A stretch of 64,000 nt of DNA from Paramecium tetraurelia. Its lineage: Eukaryota > Ciliophora > Oligohymenophorea > Peniculida > Parameciidae. The translations under genes were made by a program, and so were the position numbers. This document shows, one piece after another, positions 19,933-64,000 of this stretch. The first letter of the stretch is position 1, and each line of letters opens with the position of its first letter. The DNA lies in assembly GCF_000165425.1 (NCBI RefSeq), contig NW_001798977.1, positions 219,318 to 283,317 of the forward strand, given 5' to 3'. The notes beneath the pieces were generated by a model. That model ran no database searches and had not been told where the DNA came from. It was given only the letters and a program-made list of their open reading frames with translations.

Positions 19933-22430
19933 TCAAAATTCCTAATCCCAATCTACTGTCACTGTGCAGATCATTTCTGGACATGTATCTCTTTTTATCA
20001 TTTCCAGGAAAGGAATTTCTTAATAATTCGGTTGTTAAAGTTTCGGAATGTGTGGAGGCTTAATTTCCATCATTTCTAATTCTTCCTTTTAATTTATAGA
20101 ATCAATCATTTACCCATTAAAATCCATCAAACCAAGAATGAACTTTGAGAGCATCATATGATCCACCTAATCTTAGTTCGGGTGTCCTATTCATCAATTG
20201 ATCCATCAGTTTAATGGCTTTAAAGTCTTTCAAAAACTAAGGATACTCGACTCGCCCATTGAGAATGGCTTCTTAGATTATGTATCTAAATAAGAATAAT
20301 TGATACGGGTCATCATCTTCATTGCCTGCAAAGGGAACCTCTCCGCACATTAATTCGAAAAAGCAAATTCCCAAAGACCACAAATCAGTGGAGAATGTGT
20401 AACCTTTGCCTTTCAGAATTTCAGGAGACATGTAATGAGGTGTGCCAACAATAGTGTAAGTCTTAGATGCTCTGGACTTCAAGACTTTGGCTGTACCCAT
20501 ATCTATAAGTTTTAAGTACCCGTTTTCCATTACGATAAAGTTCTCTGGCTTTATATCTCTGTATATAATGTGATAGGAGTGAAGCTTTTCTAAAATATTA
20601 ATCATCTAAGCAACATAGAATTGAGTCTCGTAAGAATTGAGCAAACCGAGATCTCTGATAACATCGAATAGTTCTTTGCCCTTGACATACTCTGTCAATA
20701 AGTATATATAATTTTAATCTTTAAATGATCTATGAAAACAGACCAGACTGGGATGATTCAATAATTCCAAAACTTGTTTCTCATTTTTCCTATGTCTTTC
20801 AGTATTGTTTGCAATAATGTTTACTTTTGGAATACATTTCATGACATGCAAATTTTGTTGAGGGATGTCCTTAACCAAATAAGCATTTCCAAAAGTGCCT
20901 TCTCCTAAAAGTTGCAATCCAATGAAATCTTCTAAGGTAAGCAGAGAATAATTGCTTTTCTAACGTTTCTCTAACAGGCTTGAAGAACCAGCCCTGTCCT
21001 TGTTTTTCTTAACGACAGTTTCCAATTCTCCTCCGATACATTCAAAGAACTATTTAAAAGGGAGTACAGATAACGTAGTTTTACGAGTGGTTAAGATATC
21101 TGAACTAATTTTTCTCTTGGACTCCTCAACTTGGAGGAATGTGTCCCCAAATAATTGACCATTATTATATAGTTACCCATCAAACTCTAATTAACCATCA
21201 AGAATAATAATAAGTTTATCTATCATTTAGTTTTTCGAGAATAAGTACTCTTTACTTTCATAAGTCTTAATTTTAAAGTTTGACACTATCTTTTAAATTT
21301 GCATCTTAGTCAGATCCCTTAATTAATGGTGTTTTTCAAATGCCCATTTCTGCATATTTGTATAAATGATCAACTATGCAACTAAATAAATGCAATTTTG
21401 GTACCTGAATCTTCTCTCCCAGAATAGTTGTAATATCTTCTCTACTCAACGATAACAGATTCACATCCTCCTCATTGGCTTTCACAGTTGCTCCTCTTAC
21501 ACAATTGCCAAAAAGAGCTTATTCTCCAAAAGAATCTCCTTAATTCATGTATCTCAAGAACTATCCCTACTTTGTGACCGAAACAATCCCTTTTTGTATA
21601 ATATAGAATGAGTTAGCCATGTCTCCTTCATTAACAATTATCTCTCCCTGCTTAAATTTCAATGTTATCAACACATTTGCTATGCTGTCTCTTTATTCCT
21701 CAGTCATGAAGTCTAAACACTTAATTCACAACACAATACCAAAAAATTTAACTTGATCCAAGAATTTCCTATTTGTCTCGTACGCTTTTTATTGAATGTC
21801 CTCAACAGCTTTTCTAAATTTCTTTCTTTCCAATGACCAAAATCCACAATCACCTAATGCCTATACTGATGCAGATCTTGGTGCATGATACATTAAAGCC
21901 AATTCTCCAAAAAACGCCGGAGTTTTCAATACTCTCTTTACTTCATCATTTATGATAATTTTACAATCTCCTCTTTCTTACTTATTAATCATGAAGTTCT
22001 ACCAATTATAAAAAATAATGTAGCTTTATCCCCCTATTTAAAAATGTAATCTGTATTCTTGGCCGTAACGTAATACATATCATCAATTAATTTAGCTCTA
22101 CTCATACTGTTTATCTTTACTTATCATTATTATCGAGTTGAGCAAACATAAAATGGTTTCCAAAGGCATTCAAAATCATCTGAAAATCAAAAGGAGATTT
22201 TTCTTTCGGCTGCTTTACAACATTCTCATGTATCTATTCTTCCAGCACTTCTATTTTAGCCTAACGTTTCTTTTCCCCTCTTCTTGGCTTAATTGATATT
22301 TTTGCATTTGGCATACTTCAGCTGGCAAACTGCTCATCAAGTGGTTTCCCTTTTGAGGTTAAACTATAGGCATGGGATCCATGGTAATTTCAGGTTGAGG
22401 CTCCGTAATTTTACTAATACAAACTCCCAT
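19933..22430 (-). CDS. cGMP-dependent protein kinase (PKG) with three cyclic-nucleotide-binding domains
   Basis: Start ATG 22430, stop 19935-19933, about 780 residues after removal of short introns (23-31 nt). The start MGVCISK has Gly2 and Cys4, a myristoylation and palmitoylation signal that would place the kinase on membranes. CNB1 has an intact phosphate-binding cassette (FFGELALMYHAPRSAS) and CNB2 too (FGEQALFGNCVRGAT). The third (FDGQLYNNGQLFGD) lacks the Glu/Arg pair and is probably structural. The kinase shows LGEGTFGNAYLV, the Lys in HVMKCIPK, YRDIKPEN, and GTPHYMSPE. The metal-binding DFG triplet reads DMG (LIDMGTAK). The AGC tail ends with KPPHIPKL after a 28-nt intron. PKGs with three or four CNB domains are typical of alveolates, where they control secretion, motility and ciliary beat. 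Confidence 0.93.
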
Positions 22431-31477: not shown

Positions 31478-34400
31478 ATGTAGAAAACTGATTTTAACTT
31501 CAAAATATGCGCTTGCGGAAAAGTATTTGAACCTTACTCTTCCTTTGAAGCATAAGTTAAATGTGACACTTGTTTAGAAAACAAAAAATTTTCAACAAAT
31601 CAAACAGAAAAAGTACTCTTGGATCAATAACAAGAATAATATGCTAATTAAAGTGGTGACAATTAAATTAAATCTATTAGGTAATACAAAACAAAAGTAA
31701 GAAGATGAAGAATCTATTATAGAATTTGATAAGCCAATTAAATTAAATTCAAATTATGGAAACTATGATCATCATATTGGTATTAAAGCCTAATTACAAA
31801 CATTAGGAAATGCCTTATAAAGTTTAAATAAATATGAAGAATCAAATATTGAACAGGAGAAGGCGATTCAAATTGATCCAAATAATTGTTGTGACTACAT
31901 CAATAAAGGTATTAAAACATCATTACAAATATTAGCAAAAGCTTTAATGAAGATAAATAAATTTGAAGAAGCAATTTATGAAATTGATAAGGCAATTTAA
32001 TTGAATCCAAATGATCCCATCTGTTATAATATGAAAGGTATAAAGCATTATTACAAAAATTAGGAAATTCATTATAAAGTTTATATAAATATGAAGAATC
32101 AATTACCGAATATGAGAAGGCGATTCAATTAGATTCAAGTAATAGTAACTACCATTAAAATAAAGGTATCAATCTTAAATTAAAACATTAGCAAAAGCAT
32201 TACATCAGTTAAAAGATTATGAAGAAGAAGTTATTGAACATGATAAGATATTAAAAGTGACTTAAAATAATCCTGAAAAGGAAATTTTTACTAGTATCAA
32301 AGCGTTATTTAATAAATTAGGAAATTAATTATATAAATACGAAGAATATGAACAATCAATAATATAAGTTGACAAGGAAATTGAATAAAATCCAACTAAT
32401 GCTAATTCATATTATAATAAAGGCATCAATATAAGATTATATCATATAGGATTACTCTTATAAGATTTAAAAATGTTTGATGAATCAATTATTTAATTTA
32501 AAAAGGCAATTGAAATAAATCCAAATAATGCCATGTACTATAATAAAAAAGGTATAAAGTTATTAATAAATTATTAGGAGATGTTCTATGCTAGATACAT
32601 AAATATGAAGAATCAATTATAGAATATAATATGGCAATTTAATTAAATCCAAAATCTCCTACGTACTATTTTCATAAAGGTATTTATTTTCTAATGGTTA
32701 AATTAGGTAAAGCATTACTAAAATGCAATAAATCAATCATTGAATTTGAAAAGGGAATTGAATTAAATCTAAATGAAGCTAACTACTTAAACAAAAAAGG
32801 TTTAAATATACAAACAAACTATTTAGGTTTCCCTTTATATAATTTAAACAACAATGAAGAATCAATTATAAAATATGATAAAGCAATTGAATTAAATCCA
32901 AATAATGCTAAATACTATTATAGTAAAGGTTGAAATCTATAAATAATTTAATTAGGAAATGCTTTATACAATTCAAAGAAATATGAAGAATCAATTATAG
33001 AATATGATAAAGCAATTGAATTAAATCCAAATGATGCTGAATACTATAATAGTAAAGGTTGAAATATATTAATAATTTAAATAGGATATGCCTTATATGA
33101 GTTATATAAATATGAGGAATCAATTATAGAATTTGATAAAGCAATTGAATTAAATCCAAATTATGATGATTACTATAATAGTAAAGGTTGAAATATTTAA
33201 GTAATTAAATTAGGAAATGCTTTATGCAATTAAAAGAAATATGAAGAATCAATTATAGAATATGATAAAGCAATTGAATTAAATCCAAATTATGATGATT
33301 ACTATAATAGTAAAGGTTGAAATCTATAAATAATTTAATTAGGAAATGTTTTATGGAATTTAAAGAAATATGAAGAATCAATTATAGAATATGATAAAGC
33401 AATTGAATTAAATACAAATTATGATGATTACTATAATAGTAAAGGTTGAAATATATAAATAATTGAATTAGGATTAGCATTATAAGAGTTATATAAATAT
33501 GAAGAATCAATTATAGAATTTGATAAAGCTATTGAATTAAATCATAATTATTCTTAATACTATTGCAACAAAGGTTGAAATCCATAAATAATTTAATTAG
33601 GATAAGCATTATACAATTTAAAGAAATATGAAGAATCAATTAAAGAATATGATAAAGCAATTGAATTAAAACCAAGCTATGATGTTTACTATAACCGTAA
33701 AGGTTGAAATATATAAATAATTTAATTAGGATAAGCATTATACTATTTAAAGAAATATGAAGAATCAATTATAGAATTTGATAAAGCAATTAAATTAAAT
33801 CCAAATTATGATGATTACTATAATAGTAAAGGTTGAAATATATAAATAATTTAATTAGGATAAGCATTATACAATTTAAAGAAATATGAAGAATCAATTA
33901 TAGAATTTGATAAAGCAATTAAATTAAATCCAAATTATGATGATTACTATAATAGTAAAGGTTGAAATATATAAATAATTTAATTAGGATAAGCATTATA
34001 CTATTTAAAGAAATATGAAGAATCAATTATAGAATTTGATAAAGCAATTAAATTAAATCCAAATTATGATGATTACTATAATAGTAAAGGTTGAAATATA
34101 TAAATAATTTAATTAGGATAAGCCTTATACAATTTAAAGAAATATGAAGAATCAATTAAAGAATATGATAAAGCAATTGAATTAAATCGATATCATGCTG
34201 AATACTATGATAATAAAGGTTGAAATATATTAATAATTTAAATAGGATATGCCTTATACAATTTAAAAAAATATGAAGAATCAATTAAAGAATATGATAA
34301 AGCAATTGAATTAAAACCAAGCTATGATGTTTACTATAATAGTAAAGGTTGAAATATATAAATAATTTAATTAGGATAAGCATTATACTATTTAAAGAAA

Positions 34401-37400
34401 TGTGAAGAATCAATTATAGAATTTGATAAAGCTATTGAATTAAATCCAAATGATGATGTTTAATATAATTGTAAAGGTTGAAATATATAAATAATTGAAT
34501 TAGGATTAGCATTATAAGAGTTTTATAAATATGAAGAATCAATTATAGAATTTGATAAAGCTATTGAATTAAATCAAAATTTATTCTTAATACTATTGCA
34601 ATAAAGGTTGAAATCCATAAATAATTTAATTAGGATAAGCATTAATGCAATTTAAAGAAATATGAAGAATCAATTATAGAATATGATAAAGCAATTGAAT
34701 TAAATCCAAATTATGATGATTACTATAATAGTAAAGGTTGAAATATATAAATAATTGAATTAGGATAAGCATTATACAATTTAAAGAAATATGAAGAATC
34801 AATTATAGAATTTGATAAAGCAATTAAATTAAATCCAAATTATGATGATTACTATAATAGATAAAGGTTGAAATATATAAATAATTTAATTAGGATAAGC
34901 ATTATAAAATTTAAAGAAATATGAAGAATCAATAATAGAATTTGATAAAGCAATTGAATTAAATCCAAATGATGATGATTACTATAATTGTAAAGGTTGA
35001 AATATATAAATAATTTAATTAGGATAAGCATTATACAATTTAAAGAAATATGAAGAATCAATTAAAGAATATGATAAAGCAATTGAATTAAAACCAAGCT
35101 ATGATGTTTACTATAACCGTAAAGGTTGAAATATATAAATAATTTAATTAGGATAAGCCTTAATACTATTTAAAGAAATATGAAGAATCAATTATAGAAT
35201 TTGATAAAGCAATTAAATTAAATCCAAATTATGATGATTACTATAATAGTAAAGGTTGAAATATATAAATAATTTAATTAGGATAAGCATTATAAAATTT
35301 AAAGAAATATGAAGAATCAATAATAGAATTTGATAAGGCAATTGAATTAAATCCAAATTATGATGATTACTATAATAGTAAAGGTTGAAATATATAAATA
35401 ATTGAATTAGGATTAGCATTATAAGAGTTATATAAATATGAAGAATCAATTATAGAATTTGATAAAGCTATTGAATTAAATCATAATTATTCTTAATACT
35501 ATTGCAATAAAGGTTGAAATCCATAAATAATTTAATTAGGATAAGCATTATACAATTTAAAGAAATATGAAGAATCAATTAAAGAATATGATAAAGCAAT
35601 TGAATTAAAACCAAGCTATGATGTTTACTATAACCGTAAAGGTTGAAATATATAAATAATTTAATTAGGATAAGCATTATACTATTTAAAGAAATATGAA
35701 GAATCAATTATAGAATTTGATAAAGCAATTAAATTAAATCAAAATTATTCCTTAATACTATTGCAATAAAGGTTGAAATATTTAAGTAATTAAATTAGGA
35801 AATGCTTTATGCAATTTAAAGAAATATGAAGAATCAATTATAGAATATGATAAAGCAATTGAATTAAATCCAAATTATGATGATTACTATAATAGTAAAG
35901 GTTGAAATATATAAATAATTGAATTAGGATTAGCATTATAAGAGTTATATAAATATGAAGAATCAATTATAGAATTTGATAAAGCAATTAAATTAAATCC
36001 AAATTATGATGATTACTATAATAGTAAAGGTTGAAATATATAAATAATTTAATTAGGATAAGCATTATAAAATTTAAAGAAATATGAAGAATCAATTATA
36101 GAATTTGATAAAGCAATTGAATTAAATCCAAATTATGATGATTACTATAATAGTAAAGGTTGAAATATTTAAGTAATTAAATTAGGAAATGCTTTATGCA
36201 ATTAAAAGAAATATGAAGAATCAATTATAGAATATGATAAAGCAATTGAATTAAATCCAAATTATGCTGAATACTATAATAGTAAAGGTTGAAATATATT
36301 AATAATTTAAATAGGATATGCCTTATACAATTTAAAAAAATATGAAGAATCAATTATAGAATATGATAAAGCAATTGAATTAAATCCAAATGATGATGAT
36401 TACTATAATATTAAAGGTTGAAATATTTAAGTAATTAAATTAGGAAATGCTTTATGCAATTTAAAGAAATATGAAGAATCAATTATAGAATATGATAAAG
36501 CAATTGAATTAAATCCAAATTATGATGATTACTATAATAGTAAAGGTTGAAATTATATAAATAATTGAATTAGGATTAGCATTATAAGAGTTTTATAAAT
36601 ATGAAGAATCAATTATAGAATTTGATAAAGCTATTGAATTAAATCAAAATTATTCTTAATACTATTGCAATAAAGGTTGAAATCCATAAATAATTTAATT
36701 AGGATAAGCATTATGCAATTTAAAGAAATATGAAGAATCAATTATAGAATATGATAAAGCAATTGAATTAAATCCAAATTATGATGATTACTATAATAGT
36801 AAAGGTTGAAATATATAAATAATTGAATTAGGATTAGCATTATAAGAGTTTTATAAATATGAAGAATCAATTATAGAATTTGATAAAGCTATTGAATTAA
36901 ATCAAAATTATTCTTAATACTATTGCAATAAAGGTTGAAATCTATAAATAATTTAATTAGGATAAGCCTTATTCAATTTAAAGAAATATGAAGAATCAAT
37001 TATAGAATTTGATAAAGCAATTAAATTAAATCCAAATGATGCTGACTCCCATTTTAATAAAGGTGTTAACAATGAAGTATTTAAATAGGACAAGCCTTAT
37101 ACATGATAGACAATTTAGAAGAAACAATTTTTGAATTTGATTAAGCAATTTAAATAGATCCGAAAATAGCAATTTATTACATTTATAAAGGTTATTCTTA
37201 GTGATATTGATTAGGAAATTCGTTATTAGATTTGAATCGATTTTAGCCATCTATTTTTTCACAAGATGAGTTACTGAATTTACCTCATCAATAATTATTA
37301 TCAAAACAAATTCATGTTTAAAATTACTTATATAATTAGAATATGTCTAATCAAAATTATAGCCACTAAATGATTTAAAGTAATAGTGAATTTATAAATG

Positions 37401-37417
37401 AATATTTAATTAAATGA
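31478..37417 (+). CDS. tandem TPR protein with one intron per repeat
   Basis: ATG 31478 (MQKTDFNFKICACGKVFEPY) opens a short N-terminal region with CxC...CxxC (CACGK, CDTCLEN), likely a small zinc ribbon. About 44 tetratricopeptide repeats follow, and a tail of about 55 residues ends at TGA 37415-37417. The modal repeat is KYEESIIEFDKAIELNPN followed by YDDYYNSKGQALYNLK, 34 residues. Each repeat is interrupted, inside the Gly codon of its SKG, by a 24-28 nt intron. With introns left in, every repeat hits TGA at once; with them removed, 34-residue TPRs line up head to tail. TPR arrays form superhelical protein-binding scaffolds. Single-base insertions near 34580, 34644 and 34861 sum to three and restore frame. 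Two more near 35161 and 35749 do not, so as written the frame is broken there: either assembly error or a decaying 3' half. The antisense ORFs are shadows. Confidence 0.82.
31656..37211 (+). repeat. 129-bp tandem repeat array (102-bp TPR exon + 27-nt intron)
   Basis: About 43 intron-carrying units. N-terminal units (31656-32825) are diverged and their introns mostly open GTAT (for example 31780-31806, 31909-31935) or GTGA (31656-31680). From about 32930 to 37060 the units are nearly uniform and the introns open GTTGAAAT and close TTAATTAG or TTAAATAG, with variants ATCCATAA, ATCTATAA and ATTTAAGT inside. Similarity extends through both exon and intron, so whole 129-bp units were duplicated. 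One unit boundary (about 32298) has no intron. Mosaic blocks of several units recur (for example a Tyr-Cys-Asn variant at 33541, 34575, 35485, 36640 and 36900), a sign of unequal exchange or gene conversion. Confidence 0.88.
32423..32449 (+). other. candidate GC-AG intron in the TPR array
   Basis: At the place where all neighbouring repeats have a GT...AG intron, this unit has a 27-nt segment starting GCATCAAT and ending CATATAG. Removing it gives a perfect 34-residue TPR (KGLLLQDLKMFDESI). Leaving it in keeps the frame open and adds nine residues. It is either a GC-AG intron or an intron that lost its donor and became exonic. Confidence 0.5.
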
Positions 37418-41233: not shown

Positions 41234-44002
41234 ATGATTGCTGAAGTTTAGAGTAGTGAAGATCTATTAGTAATGTGTAGGATATGTGAGAAATAAGTAT
41301 GAGTGTGGTATAACATTTGTAGACAGATGCTTCATTGATTGAGAATCACCTAGTGAATTGCTAACAAATCTTTGAGGCTAGAAAGCATTTGCATCAATTG
41401 GATGTGCAAATTCAAAAATTAGCAGAGTAGGCTCAGAACAGCTTTCGTACAATAAATACAAAATATCAAATCCATAAGTCCAAGCAGGCTAGATATACAA
41501 ACCAGGATAATCGTGGAATGAGGAGCAGTGCACCGTTGAAATTGAATCAACCAGATGATTGTGCAAGTGAGGAGACAGGTTCAAGAACAAACAAGGTTAG
41601 TGCAAAGCTGTGTATAATTTTAGTGCGCAGTCAAATCGAGGTTTGCGAACTTAGGAGCAAGTTTAGCAAATAACGAGGCCTCCCAAGAGTAGACTTAGTA
41701 GGAATGTGTGACTTAGACTGTTTAATAGTCCATTACGGGAGAGGATTTCGATCAAATAATGAAACAATAGATAAAGTTATCAAAGAAAATAGAATAATAG
41801 AAACAAGGAAATAAGTTTGTTTATTCTCCAGAAATCAAACAAATAAGTTCTCCGATATCGAATGGTATGGGAAGTCCATTTTCTCTTGAGTACTTAATTA
41901 TGAATATATAATAGTGATAACACTGAAATTTTGAAAGATTTGAGACTACAGTTAGACTCTCTGTCCATCATCACTAAATATACTGAAGAAACTCTTAGAA
42001 CAAATCATGGTACTCAATCAATTTAATTTGATCTAAAAATACAAGTGGATTTGTTCAACATCAAACACACTCTCTAAAAGGAGGTCCAAGATCTAGTGAA
42101 ACTGACTTTGAAACTGATTGAAGTACAATTGAATCATTATCTCATTTTAGGAGAAGGTGCAATGTACTTAAAAAATATCGAGATTGCAGAAACTGATTTC
42201 GGAGGAAGAGAAAATAGAAAATCTTACATCTCCACGTCTCAAGATCAACAATGTAGAATTAGGAAATCGTAGGACTTCATTAGGAAATTCTCTATAAGGA
42301 CATTTTGAAATGCTCAAGAACAGTGGTAATGGAGCCAAATGGTTGAATAAGTAAAACATAGTTCCGAATTCTGAACCCAGTAAGTAGACTTAATCGAAAA
42401 CCTTCACTGAAGGTGTAGGAAAGGATTGTATCTTTTAGAAATGTCTGAGTGAATCTGAAGATGGAGGATAGAGTAGCAGTGCATCAGATTCAGAGGGTGT
42501 GGTGTCTAAGGAAATCAAAAAAAATATTACTAAGAAATCACTGGAAGAATCTTTTGAAATGGATAACTATGTAAAATAATCAAAAAGCAATATGATTTCA
42601 TTTAAGGATTTGAATCAACATCAGGTGGATAATCAGTGTGAGTTTGATAATGAGAAGGAACAGAAGGTTAAGGGGTATTACAGTGATGGAGATTTCAAGA
42701 CTACTAAATTGGTGAAGAATAAATAATTGTAAATCATAACATTATTGATATTTTAGATTGAATGTTACTCTTTAGGACTTTGAATTTATCCAGGTGTTGG
42801 GTGTCGGAGCATTTGGAGCAGTGTGGTTGGTTTGTAAGAAGAAGACTAAGGATTATTATGCAATGAAGGTGATAGATTGTAGAAATAAGAATATGAATGA
42901 AATTCAGAATTTAAGAGCTGAAAAAAATGTATTTGAAATCTTAGAAGGTGATTTTGTAGTAAAAGCATTTTATTCATTTATTTAAGACAATTGTTTATTG
43001 TTCTTGTTAGAATATATGATGGGGGGTGATTTCAGTTAAGTTCTTTATCAATATGGACGTATTTCAGAATCAGTGGCTAAATTTTATTTGGCTGAGTTGC
43101 TCTTAGCAATTGAATCATTACACAAGAAAAGAATAATTCACAGAGATTTGAAACCACAAAATATCTTATTGGATGCACAGGGTCATCTAAAGTTGGCTGA
43201 TTTTGGGTTATCTGAAATCGCATTAGTGTAAAAGATTAAGGAAGGGAAAGACGGATTCAATAGTTCCATTGATCCTGAGGCATTACCTATGAATGTTTCA
43301 AAGAGGAACATCAAAATGAAAAGCAATATTGAATTTCATCTACAAAAGACTGCTACTAAGACAAGTATTTAAGAGAGAACTCAATCAGGAAAAAGATAGA
43401 ATAGAATAATTGGAACTCCCGATTACATTCCCCCTGAAGTCATCTGTGGATAATCTATATCGAACTTTTCAATAGATTGGTGGGCTTTTGGAGTGATAGC
43501 ATATGAATTTTTAGTAGGCATTCCACCATTCAATGATTCTAGCATTCCGAAGGTGTTTGAGAACATAATGAATGGGAGCATCGAATGGCCAGAGATAGGA
43601 TGTGGAGAAGACTCGATGAGTTAGGAGGCATATGAGTTAATTAATTCATTATTAGAACCTTAATACCATAAGAGACTTGGAGAGAAAGGTGCTGAAGAAG
43701 TTAAATCTCATAAGTTCTTCAATGCAGTTGATTGGAATAACATAAGGAATCAGGAGGCTCCCATGATTCCAATACGAGATTTAGACTAATTGGAGGAGGA
43801 AGAGAGCAATATCACGAAGAAGAAGAATGAGGAGGTGAAAATGAAGGATAGATTGCAATCAGTGCAAGTCTCCCATGATGGAAACCTAGATGATGTAGCC
43901 AATCTAACCAGAGTTGATCTATTGGCCAAGATCAGTTAGAAGGATGCTGAAAATGTCATGAAAAAAAGATCAATTCGGAAGACTATTTAACAATTTCTAT
44001 GA
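41234..44002 (+). CDS. Rim15/Greatwall/IRE-type AGC protein kinase with N-terminal zinc finger
   Basis: ATG 41234; introns 41297-41322, 41596-41623, 41890-41914, 42164-42182 and 42729-42756; TGA 44000-44002; about 875 residues. The N-terminus has a C2H2-like finger spanning the first intron (VMCRICEKQ, then [11 protein letters not shown]), as in plant IRE kinases. A Ser/Gln-rich linker and coil follow ([17 protein letters not shown]). The kinase (nt about 42775-43730) shows [39 protein letters not shown] and LADFGLSE. About 60 extra residues are inserted before [14 protein letters not shown], then [20 protein letters not shown] and IEWPEIG. The insertion in the activation segment and the PPFND/FENI/EWPE pattern mark the MAST/Rim15/Greatwall branch, which controls entry into quiescence or mitosis through PP2A inhibitors in yeast and animals. 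The 19-nt intron at 42164 is the shortest here. Confidence 0.85.
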
Positions 44003-44015
44003 TTAATATATACTC

Positions 44016-47000
44016 ATGTTAAAGTACTTTCATGAATTATCTGATGAATATTCCAAAAGTACATACAATCCATAAACCATGGCTGGGTGCATCGAGGGTT
44101 TGTATGAGTATTTGAAACAAGAGAAGAATGAGGATCAATTCGTCATCAATAATGGAGGGATAAAACTTATCAATCAATCTTAATGGCATTTCGAAAAGCA
44201 ATATTCGATCTGCTTAACATTCAATCCTCAAGGGGATGGGACGATCTTCTAATTTTCATCATCTCATATCGATGGCAAGAGAATCATAGCCAATGGAGTT
44301 CATTGTTACTTAATTGGTGGTGTAGTCTTCTACAAGAATGTTTACCAGAGGTTCACTCTAGAAAGAGTTCTTGTGGAAGACTACTCTTCCAATAATCAGT
44401 TGGGTGAAGTCGTAATGAATGGATGGAATGAAATAATTATTTCTCATGAATAAGGAAAACTATACTCCAGACCCAAGTTTATATATTCAATTAATCAGAT
44501 TAAAAATACGATACAGATTGAGTATCCCAAAATCAGGAATCAAAATCTGGAGATGCTCTATTTCCAGAACATATAATGCAAAGTCAAAGAAATCTCAGTT
44601 TACAATGAAGTTGGCGACCAGCATTTGAAATCTCCTTTTTATTAAATCTACCCCCTATACGATCCTCACTAGACGAAGAGAGTCAACGATAGAATTCAGA
44701 ACGTAATCTATGAACTTTAGGGAGACACCAAGATGACATCTTCATTATAAAAATACGATTTTGTAGAATACGGCGGTATTAAAATTTTAATTCCACTTTT
44801 TGATCTAATTCAATATTACGATCATTCTTAAATTGATGACCTATTTAAAATCTTACTCTATACTTTGTTACAGGATAGTCAAATCAACAAGAATTAAATT
44901 GTCGAAATGAAACTATTCCAACAGATAGCATAGATCATCAATGTAGACATCCCCAATCTAAGTTAAATTTTGCAGATCAAACAAAAAGTTGAGGATCAAG
45001 ATATACTCAATCAACTATTGTTGTTAATTATTGATGTCAATTTCATCAAAAGAATCACCGATTAATAGTAATACTGCATTTTATTACAGCAATTCTATAT
45101 CAGTGATCATCAGAAATACTTACAAGTCACTCCCATCTAATATTTGGCTCAGTTATTGGTGAGTGTCAATCAGAAGAGTCTAATCCAAGATCAAATTCTA
45201 TAAATTATGATTTACTCCTGCTAATATAACTTTAATACATTGAAGGACTAATTCAAACTATTTTTAAAGGTCGCCGAAGCCTCATCAATCGAACTCAAAA
45301 TCAAAGCCATCTAAAGTGCAACCAGGTTGGTTTCTGACTTATTCAGAGATGATCAAGAGAATTTCATTGTATTCAGAAATCATAACATTCAAAATAAGAT
45401 CCTAAATGACATCTTTCTTCTACTCTAGACTGATAGCATGGATTGTTTGGTGGCGACCATCACCTTGTTAGGATAAATGCTCTATGGCACCAAGGACCTA
45501 TTAAGTCAAGGCATGATCTCTTATATTTCTAAGGCGATCTGTGTAAACAATAACTTTGACAATCTATTGAATGCATTAACTCAATTACTAAAGATTAACT
45601 GCTTGTGTGTTGAAATTCTGTAGCATCTATACTCTTAGACTAAATAACAAAATATTCTGGATTACTATTTCAATTACGTCAAGAAAATTAGCATTGAATA
45701 ATAATAACTCATACTTTAATAACACTCCATTTGGTTTTTGGATTAATTGAAGATCGAATAAAACGAAAGACTTCTTTAGATTTTTATGCATCTTCTAGAT
45801 TAGAATCCTCAATATCTGAGTCAAACTTTGATTCATTAACAAATTCGATAAGATGTGCAAACACTTTTGGTGATTGTCACAGAAGTGATTGAGAAGTTTA
45901 ATGAAGAGCAAATATTTCAAGTACAGTAGATAATGTTCTAAATATACTTCTCAGTGCAATCGTTTAAGAATTTTGAAGGATTTTTAACTAAATTAATTAA
46001 GTATATAATATATCTAGAAAATGAGCAAGAGTTATCAAAAATAGTTGAACAAAAAGAACTACCTTTTGGCATTCAAAAGATCATCAACTTGAGTTGCCCA
46101 ATTGACAAGTTGAAAGAATGGTTATTCTATTTCACCAAGCTTTTTGAATAAACACAGTATCTGAATACAGAAACAAGTGAACTCTTCATGATCCAAATAG
46201 TTGAACTGCTTAAAGCAATCCAATCCTAAACTTAGGATCAGTAAATAAAGGAGGTTATCGAATATTTCTTCACTCAAAATGTGCTAATTCTCTAATCACT
46301 TTCAGAGCAACAAGTGCAAGTCTTTGATTCAATTAAATTTCAGTAAGACTTTTAGGCTTTTCAGGAATCTTTGTTGCTTAAGTGGACTCAAGAATAATAA
46401 TAGATCAAAATGACACAATCAGAACAATTATCAAAATTAACAGATGAAATTAATTATGCTGCTGCATCGATGCAAGTGTCAGTGTACAAGTTAATGAACA
46501 AGACTCGAAAGATTAGATAGAGATGGTGCAAACTTTGGCATAATCTACGTATCACCGTGTATAGACCAAAAGATTGCAGATTCCAAGTAGATGAATAAAT
46601 CGATCATGATTACAAATTCAAAGAGAATCCTTATTACACCAATAAAATTGAGAAATACATCAATAAGTATTATTCACGTCCCATTTTAAAAGTGAAGTTT
46701 AAGAAGAACCCTGAGTTTGAGAATGACGCATAAGTGCAGTTGGAAAAGAAACAACAATACAAATGCTTTTGGTTGAAGAGCTTATACTTAAAGCAAGGGG
46801 GCGTTACAATAGGAGATGAAAAAATAACATTCTCCTATTACTCCTATACCTAAAAGGCGAATCATATAACTTTGTTGCCTCACACAATACCAAATCACAA
46901 GCCATTTAAGAAATCGTGGAGGAGGGATTAAATTAGGTGGCTGCATGAAAGGATTTATATCAGAAATAGAAATGCCATTGAAATCATCTTCAAGGATGGA

Positions 47001-48891
47001 GAGTCCCTGTACTTGATATTTTAGGACGAGGGATTGAAGGAAGAGATTATTGAGAAGTTGAAAATACAACCCAAATAATGTGATTTTAATAAGGTTAGCA
47101 ACTTCAAGTATTTGATGTATCTGAATTTCCTATCTTGTCGTTCTTACATCGATTTCACTAGATATCCAGTGTTTCCATGGGTTTTAAAAGGAAATGCATC
47201 AGATTTTGATGACAATGATATAGCATCAATACAGAATGAGATCAATTACAGAGATCTTTCTTTACCAATAGGAGCTTGTGGAAGTGAAGTCAGATTAGAT
47301 TAATTCATCAAGAGATTCGAAAATGAGTAGTTTTATTACGGAACACATTATTCTAGTCAGGCATTGGTGTCTCAATATTTGGTACGATTGAGTCCATTTA
47401 CAGAGGCTGCAATATCAATCTAGGATGGTAAATTCGATATTCCAGATCGAATGTTTAGATCGATCATGAAGTCATGGATAGATTGCAATAATGAAATGGC
47501 TGACGTGAGAGAATTGACTCCTGAATTCTTTTATTTGCCTGAAGCCTTTATAAACATCAATGCCCATAATTTTGGTAAGTTGCAAAGTAGTTAAGTCGTA
47601 AACAATGTGCAATTGCCACACTACTCCAATAAGAATCCATTTTATTATGTCGCCTAGAATATGATAGCATTAGAAAGTGAGTATGCTATTAAGATTGAAT
47701 GAATGGATTGACTTGATTTGGGGATACAAATAGCAAGGAAATGCTGCTGTCGATTCCTTCAATGTGTTTTATCCACTAACTTACTCTAATTTTGATGAAG
47801 GGAGTATAGAAATCAATGAATTAGCAATGGAAACTCAAATTGCTCATTTTGGATAAACACCAGAGTAACTGTTTTATAAGCCGCATGCTCAAAAAAATGA
47901 AGTAGTTGATAAGACTTAGTGGTAGGCGGCAAAGAATAAAAAGTCATAAAGTAAATTGATCTATTTAATTTGTAATAAGAACAAAGTAGTTAGCATTCAG
48001 GAAGATTTCACTTTAATCTAATGGTAGATTGTTAAAAATTAATAACAGTTTTAAATTGAGAAACAAGTGTAATTACCTAGAATTCATTTTGATGCTATGA
48101 TCAAATATGTATTACCACCAATATTAGTATTGATTGAATAGTCAACCGTATTATTCGGTGGGAATAACAATGGAACACTTCTATACTAGTACTTAGACAA
48201 TTTGAAGGTGTAGGGAGTGATCGAATTGGAAAGTGAGATAATCAACAATCATTGCACTGTGACCGTTCTAGAGTCAAATAAACAATAAAATATAGTGATA
48301 CTTGGAACCAATAAGGGTTTGGTTTATTATTATAGCAAGATTCTGTAAAATAAATAGGATATAAAATAAGAGGAATTACTAAAGGGCAAATATGTGATCT
48401 ATGACACAACCTCGCAAATCAATTCAATCACGATTTCAGAATAACTCACCATCTTTTGTGTTGGAACTCAAGACGGAACGATATTCTTATATAATTTGTA
48501 TAATCGCACTCTTTACAGATTTATAAATCATCCAAAAAGACTGCCTATTTATTATCTAGCATTAAGTTATTCTCCATTGCCTTGTATTTTATTTAGTTCC
48601 CATGATGAACGGGTTGTAGCATATTCAATAAATGGATTCTTGCTACAATTACTGTAAGTCAAAGGAAATATAGAATACATTTAAATCAAGAAATCACCTA
48701 TAAATACCTTAGTATAGCATTTATTATTAAATTGATAGGTTGTAATCACTGACAATAACGTCTTTGAATATAGACTGCCATTTTTAGATAGACTGTCAAT
48801 TGTCTCGTCCCAAATGTGTACAAGATTTGTTTAGGCAACAAAACAAATTTCTATTTATGGTTGTAAATCAGGTGATCTGCGTGTATTTTGA
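44016..48891 (+). CDS. BEACH-WD40 protein (first copy)
   Basis: ATG 44016 (MLKYFHELSDEYSKSTYNPQ) lies 13 bp after the stop of the kinase gene. A single uninterrupted frame encodes an N-terminal concanavalin-like domain (nt about 44140-44660), a long helical armadillo-like region, a PH-BEACH domain (nt about 46450-47070), the BEACH core (FTRYPVFPWVLK, FYYGTHYSSQALVSQYLVRL, EFFYLPEAFININAHNFGK, MIALES, LNEWIDLIWGYKQQG) and C-terminal WD40 blades up to TGA 48889-48891. About 1,620 residues. BEACH proteins are scaffolds for vesicle fission and fusion and lysosome-related organelles. At about 47690-47712 the frame must shift (SEYAIK to LNEWIDL) and no intron of usual length does it. Otherwise the gene appears intronless. 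Confidence 0.87.
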
Positions 48892-63736: not shown

Positions 63737-64000
63737 TCATAAAGATTGTAAGAAACTTCTTGTTAGTTATGGATTGCTGAATACAATTTCTAAAGCTTCT
63801 TCGAATCTGTAAATCTTAACTAAAGTCTTAGCTAAAATATCATCCATTGTTTACTTTACCTTTAGAATAAAACAATTTTGAATCCTCTGGATTTCTTTAT
63901 ATTGCTAAATCATAATTTTCCAAAGCTTCTTCAAATCTGCACATTTTATCTAGAGTGAAAGCTAAAATATCATCTATTTTTGATTATACCTTTACTACCA
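63737..64000 (-). CDS. TPR protein with intron-per-repeat design (5' part beyond window)
   Basis: The last two repeats and C-terminus of a TPR gene entering from the right. Read from 64000 leftwards: SK, intron 63962-63989, AFTLDKMCRFEEALENYDLA and IQRNPEDSKLFYSK, intron 63832-63859, AKTLVKIYRFEEALEIVF, then a short tail NPQLTRSFLQSL and TGA 63739-63737. Both introns are 28 nt, begin GTA, share the 3' half ATGATATTTTAG, and sit at the same place in the repeat (after the SK of a TPR) as in the 31.5-37.4 kb gene. The protein sequences are otherwise different (RFEEAL versus KYEESI), so this is a separate array. The TPR consensus is clear. Confidence 0.7.

Follow-up and report, generated by a model that had tools for sequence, protein, structure and literature searches.

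A 64,000-nt stretch of the Paramecium tetraurelia genome (contig NW_001798977.1, positions 219,318 to 283,317 of the forward strand; the window) contains a tetratricopeptide repeat (TPR) array with intron-like segments at a fixed codon and phase, separated by exons of exactly 102 nt. The same layout was found at at least 27 further loci on 27 further contigs, giving 28 with the window. The window locus is very probably a protein-coding gene with some 44 TPRs and an ultra-short spliceosomal intron in each of them, and one of at least 28 such loci. The layout is that of a gene family and not of a single unusual gene, which is wider than the original prediction, where the window array had been treated as a single extreme case. 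Splicing, decay, function and history of the family are inferred from the DNA.

Layout of the window array

The window was parsed by a Viterbi method using a 34-position TPR profile (seeded with the window array and an array on contig C178), genetic code 6 (TAA and TAG = Gln) and introns 18-36 nt long with GT..AG ends, allowed in every codon and phase. The parser bars TGA within exons, and the absence of TGA from the parsed exons is therefore by construction. The parse scored 3095 bits with introns versus 368 bits and 63 frameshifts when introns were forbidden. It gave 42 introns, 41 of them at TPR position 34 (the K-G codon) in phase 1, as expected from the predicted intron in nearly every 34-residue repeat at a fixed codon. 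We took the parsed intron at 32257 for an artefact, since two segments overlooked by the parser lie in that stretch, 32294-32320 (GT-AG, with ACTA just before it) and 32423-32449 (GC-AG). The corrected total (parse plus three by eye minus one artefact) is 44 putative introns, 43 GT-AG and one GC-AG; the predicted number of about 43 splicing events per transcript was about right, and the predicted GT...AG ends were found in all but the segment at 32423.

The positions of the gene and its parts are as follows.

31478..37417, + strand: whole TPR-array gene (putative), ATG at 31478 and TGA stop at 37415-37417; code-6 reading and free-placement parse
31478..31652, + strand: first exon, N-terminal, 58 residues with four Cys (CAC...CDTC); direct reading
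31653..31680, + strand: intron 1, 28 nt, GTG..TAG; by eye, from the frame running on from the N-terminal exon into the first repeat
31780..32826, + strand: divergent 5' repeats with introns 2-10, lacking in-frame TGA inside the introns; parse and direct reading
31780 (27 nt), 31909 (27 nt), 32038 (26 nt), 32166 (26 nt), 32294 (27 nt), + strand: introns 2-6
32423 (27 nt, GC-AG), 32552 (26 nt), 32680 (27 nt), 32800 (27 nt), + strand: introns 7-10
32929..36960, + strand: amplified part, 32 GTTGA..TAG introns alternating with 102-nt exons (five of 103 nt)
34581..35749, + strand: five +1 exon insertions (near 34581, 34648, 34859, 35163 and 35749); parse and unit alignment
37063..37088, + strand: intron 43, 26 nt, GTG..TAG; parse
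37191..37214, + strand: intron 44, 24 nt, GTT..TAG; parse
37215..37417, + strand: last exon with the end of the last repeat, a non-TPR tail and the TGA stop; direct reading

The proposed splice place follows the first nucleotide of the position-34 codon (AAAG|GT...AG|). A 102-nt exon per unit was confirmed for 36 of the 43 internal exons, the others being 103 nt (five), 99 nt (one) and 93 nt (one). Most introns have the predicted 27 nt; those at 32038, 32166, 32552 and 37063 have 26 nt, those at 31653 and 36546 have 28 nt and the one at 37191 has 24 nt. The exons beside the four 26-nt introns and the 28-nt intron at 36546 keep 102 nt, as splicing predicts. Over most of the amplified part the raw TPR-bearing frame is open only in 42-residue pieces closed by TGA. 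The exons total 4757 nt, or 1584 codons including the stop after removal of five surplus bases, and encode about 44 TPRs. The spliced 498-residue front part matched TPR_1, TPR_2, TPR_8 and TPR_11 far over the Pfam cut-off, which bears out the call of a TPR gene. Tandem Repeats Finder placed a 129-bp array at 31705-37037 and 32731-37161.

The N-terminal segment (31478-31652) had no Pfam match, and its sole match in the whole genome was itself. A protein search restricted to proteins 0.55-1.75 times the length of an 827-residue query gave one candidate and no homologue for it. Antisense open reading frames in the array (up to 816 aa) were judged to be no gene evidence, as long open frames are expected at 19-20% GC with one stop codon.

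At 63794-64000 on the - strand, where contig C24 ends, there is another TPR-like stretch, directed towards the contig end; the parse of 63794-63935 (-) gave 38 bits with one 28-nt intron off the usual codon, and the remainder to 64000 is similar by eye alone. The neighbouring genes at 20102-21445 (-), 42749-44002 (+) and 43962-47702 (+) appear to be protein kinases, judged by eye, and a BEACH-domain protein, named after its relatives, all of them ordinary genes for Paramecium. In the aligned region, the BEACH-domain protein is 84-92% identical to four proteins from P. sonneborni, P. primaurelia and P. tetraurelia, which places the window in a Paramecium like those of the aurelia complex.

A family of loci with one intron per repeat

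The window's own assembly (69 Mb, 231 contigs) was searched with one DNA query, one DNA pattern and two protein queries. From the protein queries 150 of 333 and 150 of 390 candidates were scored, and 28 loci is a lower bound. Loci L001-L008 and L011-L037 are inside the window. The family count leaves out L043 and L044 (only 1 and 2 introns), L045 and L046 (array not found), L010, L038 and L039 (pattern matches) and the controls L063-L073.

The 27 further loci together comprise 11,215 codons, about 330 repeats and 308 parsed introns, 294 of which are at position 34 in phase 1. Exons outside the window are exactly 102 nt in 234 of 267 cases and 204 nt in none of the 267. The family thus has the form of an exact-length repeat-exon array, with one exon per repeat and a fixed phase. 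The 294 introns are 20-33 nt long with a mode of 28 nt. Their donors are GTA (246), GTT (35), GTC (8) and GTG (5), and their acceptors TAG (195), AAG (64), CAG (33) and GAG (2), so that YAG accounts for 228.

Exons of 227-235 nt correspond to two repeats plus one intron-sized piece. Among the 14 over-long exons outside the window with a readable hidden junction, the donor place has GC in seven and GT in seven, and the GC ones end in TAG. A 195-nt exon in L076 is the one candidate for precise intron loss. GC donors (GCA..TAG) at the family intron place were observed in the window (32423-32449) and in L040, L053, L054, L057, L074 and L079, and a GC-AG intron class in Paramecium is possible. Two sequence types share the intron place, one with a split codon that is mostly Gly (G|GN) and one with a codon that is often Ala (G|CN), when L056, L042, L052 and L049 are compared with the window, L009 and L040.

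The control set consisted of 11 TPR loci picked for unbroken matches, some of them short (55-122 codons); it shows that intronless TPR genes exist and not how frequent they are. The intron-per-repeat pattern was absent from all 11 control loci, and 10 had no intron at all in the stretch read.

Evidence that the segments are introns came from their ends. In the first 13 loci parsed, where GT and AG alone were imposed, the third donor base was A in 110 of 132 introns versus a 40% background (P = 2e-24), and the acceptor was YAG in 106 of 132 versus 43%; 3 of these 132 introns came from L043 and L044. A parse of 19 loci other than the window, without any end rule, gave 205 gaps, and 182 of these lay around the usual intron codon. 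GT-AG was the commonest of the 256 possible end pairs, found within 3 nt in 108 of the 182 (50 times expectation), and the same test at four shifted places gave 0. An earlier raw-score test of the 256 pairs on four loci had ranked GT-AG fourth, after TA-GC, AA-AA and TA-AA. We judged that test to be confounded by base composition and AT-rich ends, and by GC-AG introns splitting the path, and it is superseded by the parse without an end rule. The family shows the sequence features of Paramecium spliceosomal introns (GT-AG ends, a preference for GTA..YAG and a length of 20-34 nt), and its lengths and GTA..TAG ends fit the introns described in the available passages of PMC5663052.

The segments might instead be internal eliminated sequences (IESs) left in macronuclear DNA. 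The shortest IESs have 26 nt, and a 27-bp segment is near that class. Against this, the segments end in GT-AG, at times GC-AG, at a fixed codon, TA-TA is outside the eight commonest end pairs, and 85 of the 294 family segments are shorter than 26 nt. The segments are also still present in an assembly in which several contigs end in telomere-type repeats, which suggest that it is macronuclear. We rejected the IES interpretation, which calls for segments bounded by two TA and excised from macronuclear DNA, and consider it scarcely credible.

Another alternative is translation of the entire 129-bp unit as a 43-residue repeat, in which TGA would encode an amino acid. The unit is a multiple of three, and a read-through of one unit still matches Pfam TPR models. 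The rest of the family does not allow this, as 209 of the 294 introns are not a multiple of three and their retention would shift the frame. On contig C178 (L009, 351088-353626) the segments are 24-26 nt long, 16 of 19 shift the frame, and after splicing the frame stays open over 688 residues; splicing is required there to keep the frame. Recoding of TGA is untenable for the family, and we give it next to no chance at the window.

The arrays lie close to contig ends more often than expected, 21 of 28 within 30 kb (4.8 expected) and 15 of 28 within 10 kb (1.6 expected), although contigs may break at repeats and this enrichment alone is not proof of a subtelomeric position. Among the 21 arrays found first, 10, 12 and 15 lay within 10, 20 and 30 kb, versus 1, 4 and 4 of the 11 controls (Fisher 0.03, 0.23 and 0.06). 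Telomere-type repeats were found at 6-78 of C76, with the array at about 240-2350, and at 16746-16842 of C174, with the array at 12.4-15.9 kb. They are present at the near end of C165 and C50, and at the end far from the array in C158, C190 and C196. In the telomere search the backward pattern gave 85 and 146 matches, more than the 45 and 51 of the telomere pattern, but it fits the same runs and is no control. The repeats of C174 lie inside a 471-kb contig, less than 1 kb from the TPR array, and telomere-type runs some kb from contig starts were seen elsewhere too, for example on C40, C101, C192 and C221. Such internal repeats could be alternative chromosome ends or joined contigs.

Amplification and state of the window copy

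The original prediction had the introns gained through expansion of the window array. This does not agree with the presence of an intron at the same codon and phase, with diverged sequence, at at least 27 other loci, from which the intron is most likely older than the local amplification. Over 20 loci and the window, intron likeness was 72% within a locus, 66% between loci and 65% with shuffled interiors, while exon likeness was 71% within and 55% between loci. Because intron sequences are near chance between loci and yet share position and phase, the intron probably predates each array, and each array has probably amplified its own version.

The predicted copying of exon and intron together was borne out by block copies of up to about 570 bp. 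The best near-identical block in the window (ungapped offsets) has 569 bp, or 4.4 units, with 14 mismatches at an offset of 15 units, and copying thus ran over several units at once. In L052 a three-repeat block is seemingly triplicated, with intron lengths cycling through about 27-29, 26 and 30-31 nt as a higher-order repeat.

These data are consistent with a history in which an ancestral TPR array whose position-34 codon held an intron was dispersed to many loci, frequently close to chromosome ends. At each locus, unequal crossing-over or gene conversion would have copied whole intron-plus-exon units, so that intron number tracks repeat number. In the window gene, a derivative intron with a weak GTT donor and a built-in TGA would have been amplified to 32 copies. 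If the gene is transcribed, every intron would have to be removed to hold the 34-residue phase. A retained GTTGA intron would terminate translation immediately, and the mRNA should then be a target of nonsense-mediated decay (NMD). The protein should form a TPR superhelix, a binding scaffold.

A protein search with the C178 protein returned mostly bacterial TPR proteins, and the best 120 of 4598 included P. pentaurelia P0089 and P. bursaria P0058. In P. bursaria P0058, stretches resembling retained or mis-framed introns follow the same K-G (e.g. NHKG-KNFSCNLG-VSLKYLK). This hints at an origin of the layout before that of the aurelia group.

The claim that TGA is present in every retained copy was correct for all 32 amplified introns, which have it at their 5' end (31 have 27 nt and one, at 36546, 28 nt), and incorrect for the 5' copies. 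Six 27-nt segments there have no in-frame TGA (31780, 31909, 32294, 32423, 32680 and 32800), and the 26-nt ones shift the frame instead. Among parsed introns that are multiples of three, in-frame TGA was found in 32 of 36 in the window versus 9 of 85 over the 27 other loci; in the first 13 loci parsed it was found in 3 of 38, versus 3.5 in shuffles. The TGA characterises the single intron variant amplified in the window array and is made by its GTTGA start; 34 of the 41 parsed window introns start with GTT. It makes an otherwise translatable intron of this length class potentially detectable by NMD.

Several observations weigh against a functional window gene with the proposed splice sites, or against the family as described. 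The amplified donors are GTT and not the GTA consensus, and a competing GTAAAG donor is present 6 nt upstream in 23 of the 32 amplified units. Five +1 insertions, which the original prediction had not mentioned, interrupt the assembled frame. The amplified units have a dN/dS of 0.90 and an intron/synonymous ratio of 0.66, so that purifying selection was not seen; the amplified copies are either of too recent origin or under too little constraint for it to be visible. In 14 of the 27 other loci a total of 21 frameshifts had to be stepped over (13 have none), some of which may be parser errors in divergent repeats. The control L064 (contig C62) has just one intron-like segment, of 29 nt, at the family's codon and phase, perhaps a relic or the start of the layout.

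The upstream GTAAAG raises the possibility that the amplified units are spliced there, removing 33 nt and leaving 32-residue repeats. GTA is the Paramecium donor consensus in the parts of PMC5663052 available, and 33 nt is inside the known length range and also a multiple of three. The motif is, however, missing from nine of the 32 units, and the 27-nt choice matches the place of the 294 family introns and preserves the 34-residue TPR phase. We regard use of the upstream donor as improbable.

The insertions bear on whether the window array is a decaying or dead member of a real family that no longer makes protein. The amplified part has six single-base indels, all gains compared with the majority and none of them losses, one being in the intron at 36546. 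Two of the five exon insertions, in units 34607 and 35125, share one column, like an inherited mutation. With the frame breaks, the weak GTT donors and the dN/dS across the units, this favors decay. On the other hand, the GT and AG of the 32 amplified introns show zero substitutions, and the start and stop codons share one frame after discounting the five bases. Six gains in the most repetitive stretch would in our judgement fit sequencing or assembly error. No in-frame TGA occurs among 61 distinct exon changes, a weak point as only 0.83 was expected. Decay of the window copy is a real possibility, though we lean towards doubting it, and a protein-coding gene is still our interpretation of the locus.

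Significance and comparison with known systems

A broader proposal may be made, which we advance tentatively and think rather unlikely. It describes a large and largely subtelomeric TPR superfamily in which the intron was amplified, diverged and homogenised together with each exon, was almost never lost and is kept by selection, as an independent counterpart of leucine-rich repeat (LRR) genes in Tetrahymena. Intronless units could spread as easily, and that they are nearly absent points to retention of the intron by selection. If so, the intron might for instance serve as quality control, with each repeat carrying an NMD trigger or frame check of its own that catches copies which are mis-spliced or have recombined wrongly.

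P. tetraurelia genes have a mean of 2.3 introns and a mean retention of 3.3% per intron, and intron-rich genes have a lower error per intron, according to the passages available of PMC5663052. At 3.3% retention, complete splicing of a transcript with 44 introns would be reached in about 23% of cases, a figure given as illustration only. Near-alike neighbouring introns that differ at known bases (donor, stop, length) offer a natural assay of splicing accuracy and NMD, here for introns close to the lower size limit. The family also allows intron age, amplification and the near-absence of loss to be told apart.

No account of intron-per-repeat TPR genes in Paramecium was found in the open-licence literature, as far as its text was available. 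Arrays of this sort are not reported for TPR genes in the available parts of PMC6564038, and those of PMC12862383 and PMC13059789 contain nothing on intron-per-repeat arrays. TPR and WD40 repeat expansion is mentioned in the accessible text of PMC3464196 for IES copies only.

Compared with ordinary Paramecium introns, as described in excerpts of PMC5663052, PMC11334263 and PMC5014332, the family introns are alike in being GT-AG, mostly GTA..TAG, and within the range of 20-35 nt, and introns of a multiple of three with an in-frame stop belong to the class visible to NMD. They differ in the GTT donor of the amplified window copies and in that translatable introns of a multiple of three are common in the family (76/294). 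TPR proteins in general (Pfam TPR_1, TPR_2 and TPR_8) have the same 34-residue repeat and consensus, and the gene structure differs.

The closest known case, and a clear precedent, is that of the Tetrahymena LRR genes with 90-bp exons. In the portions of PMC6564038 available, the group II/III genes are arrays of exactly 90-bp exons with phase 2 introns, the youngest exon-array genes lie near chromosome ends and centromeres, and P. tetraurelia LRR genes are described as lacking such exon arrays. Judged from the same portions, both systems are ciliate multigene families with an exact-length exon per repeat, a phase bias and tandem exon-intron amplification. The Paramecium family is not itself of the Tetrahymena type, with TPR in place of LRR domains, 102-bp in place of 90-bp exons, phase 1 in place of phase 2, and introns of 20-33 nt in place of about 56-257 bp. 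The Tetrahymena arrays are linked there to a retrotransposon. On this comparison, the two ciliate genera seem to have arrived at one exon-array architecture from different repeats.

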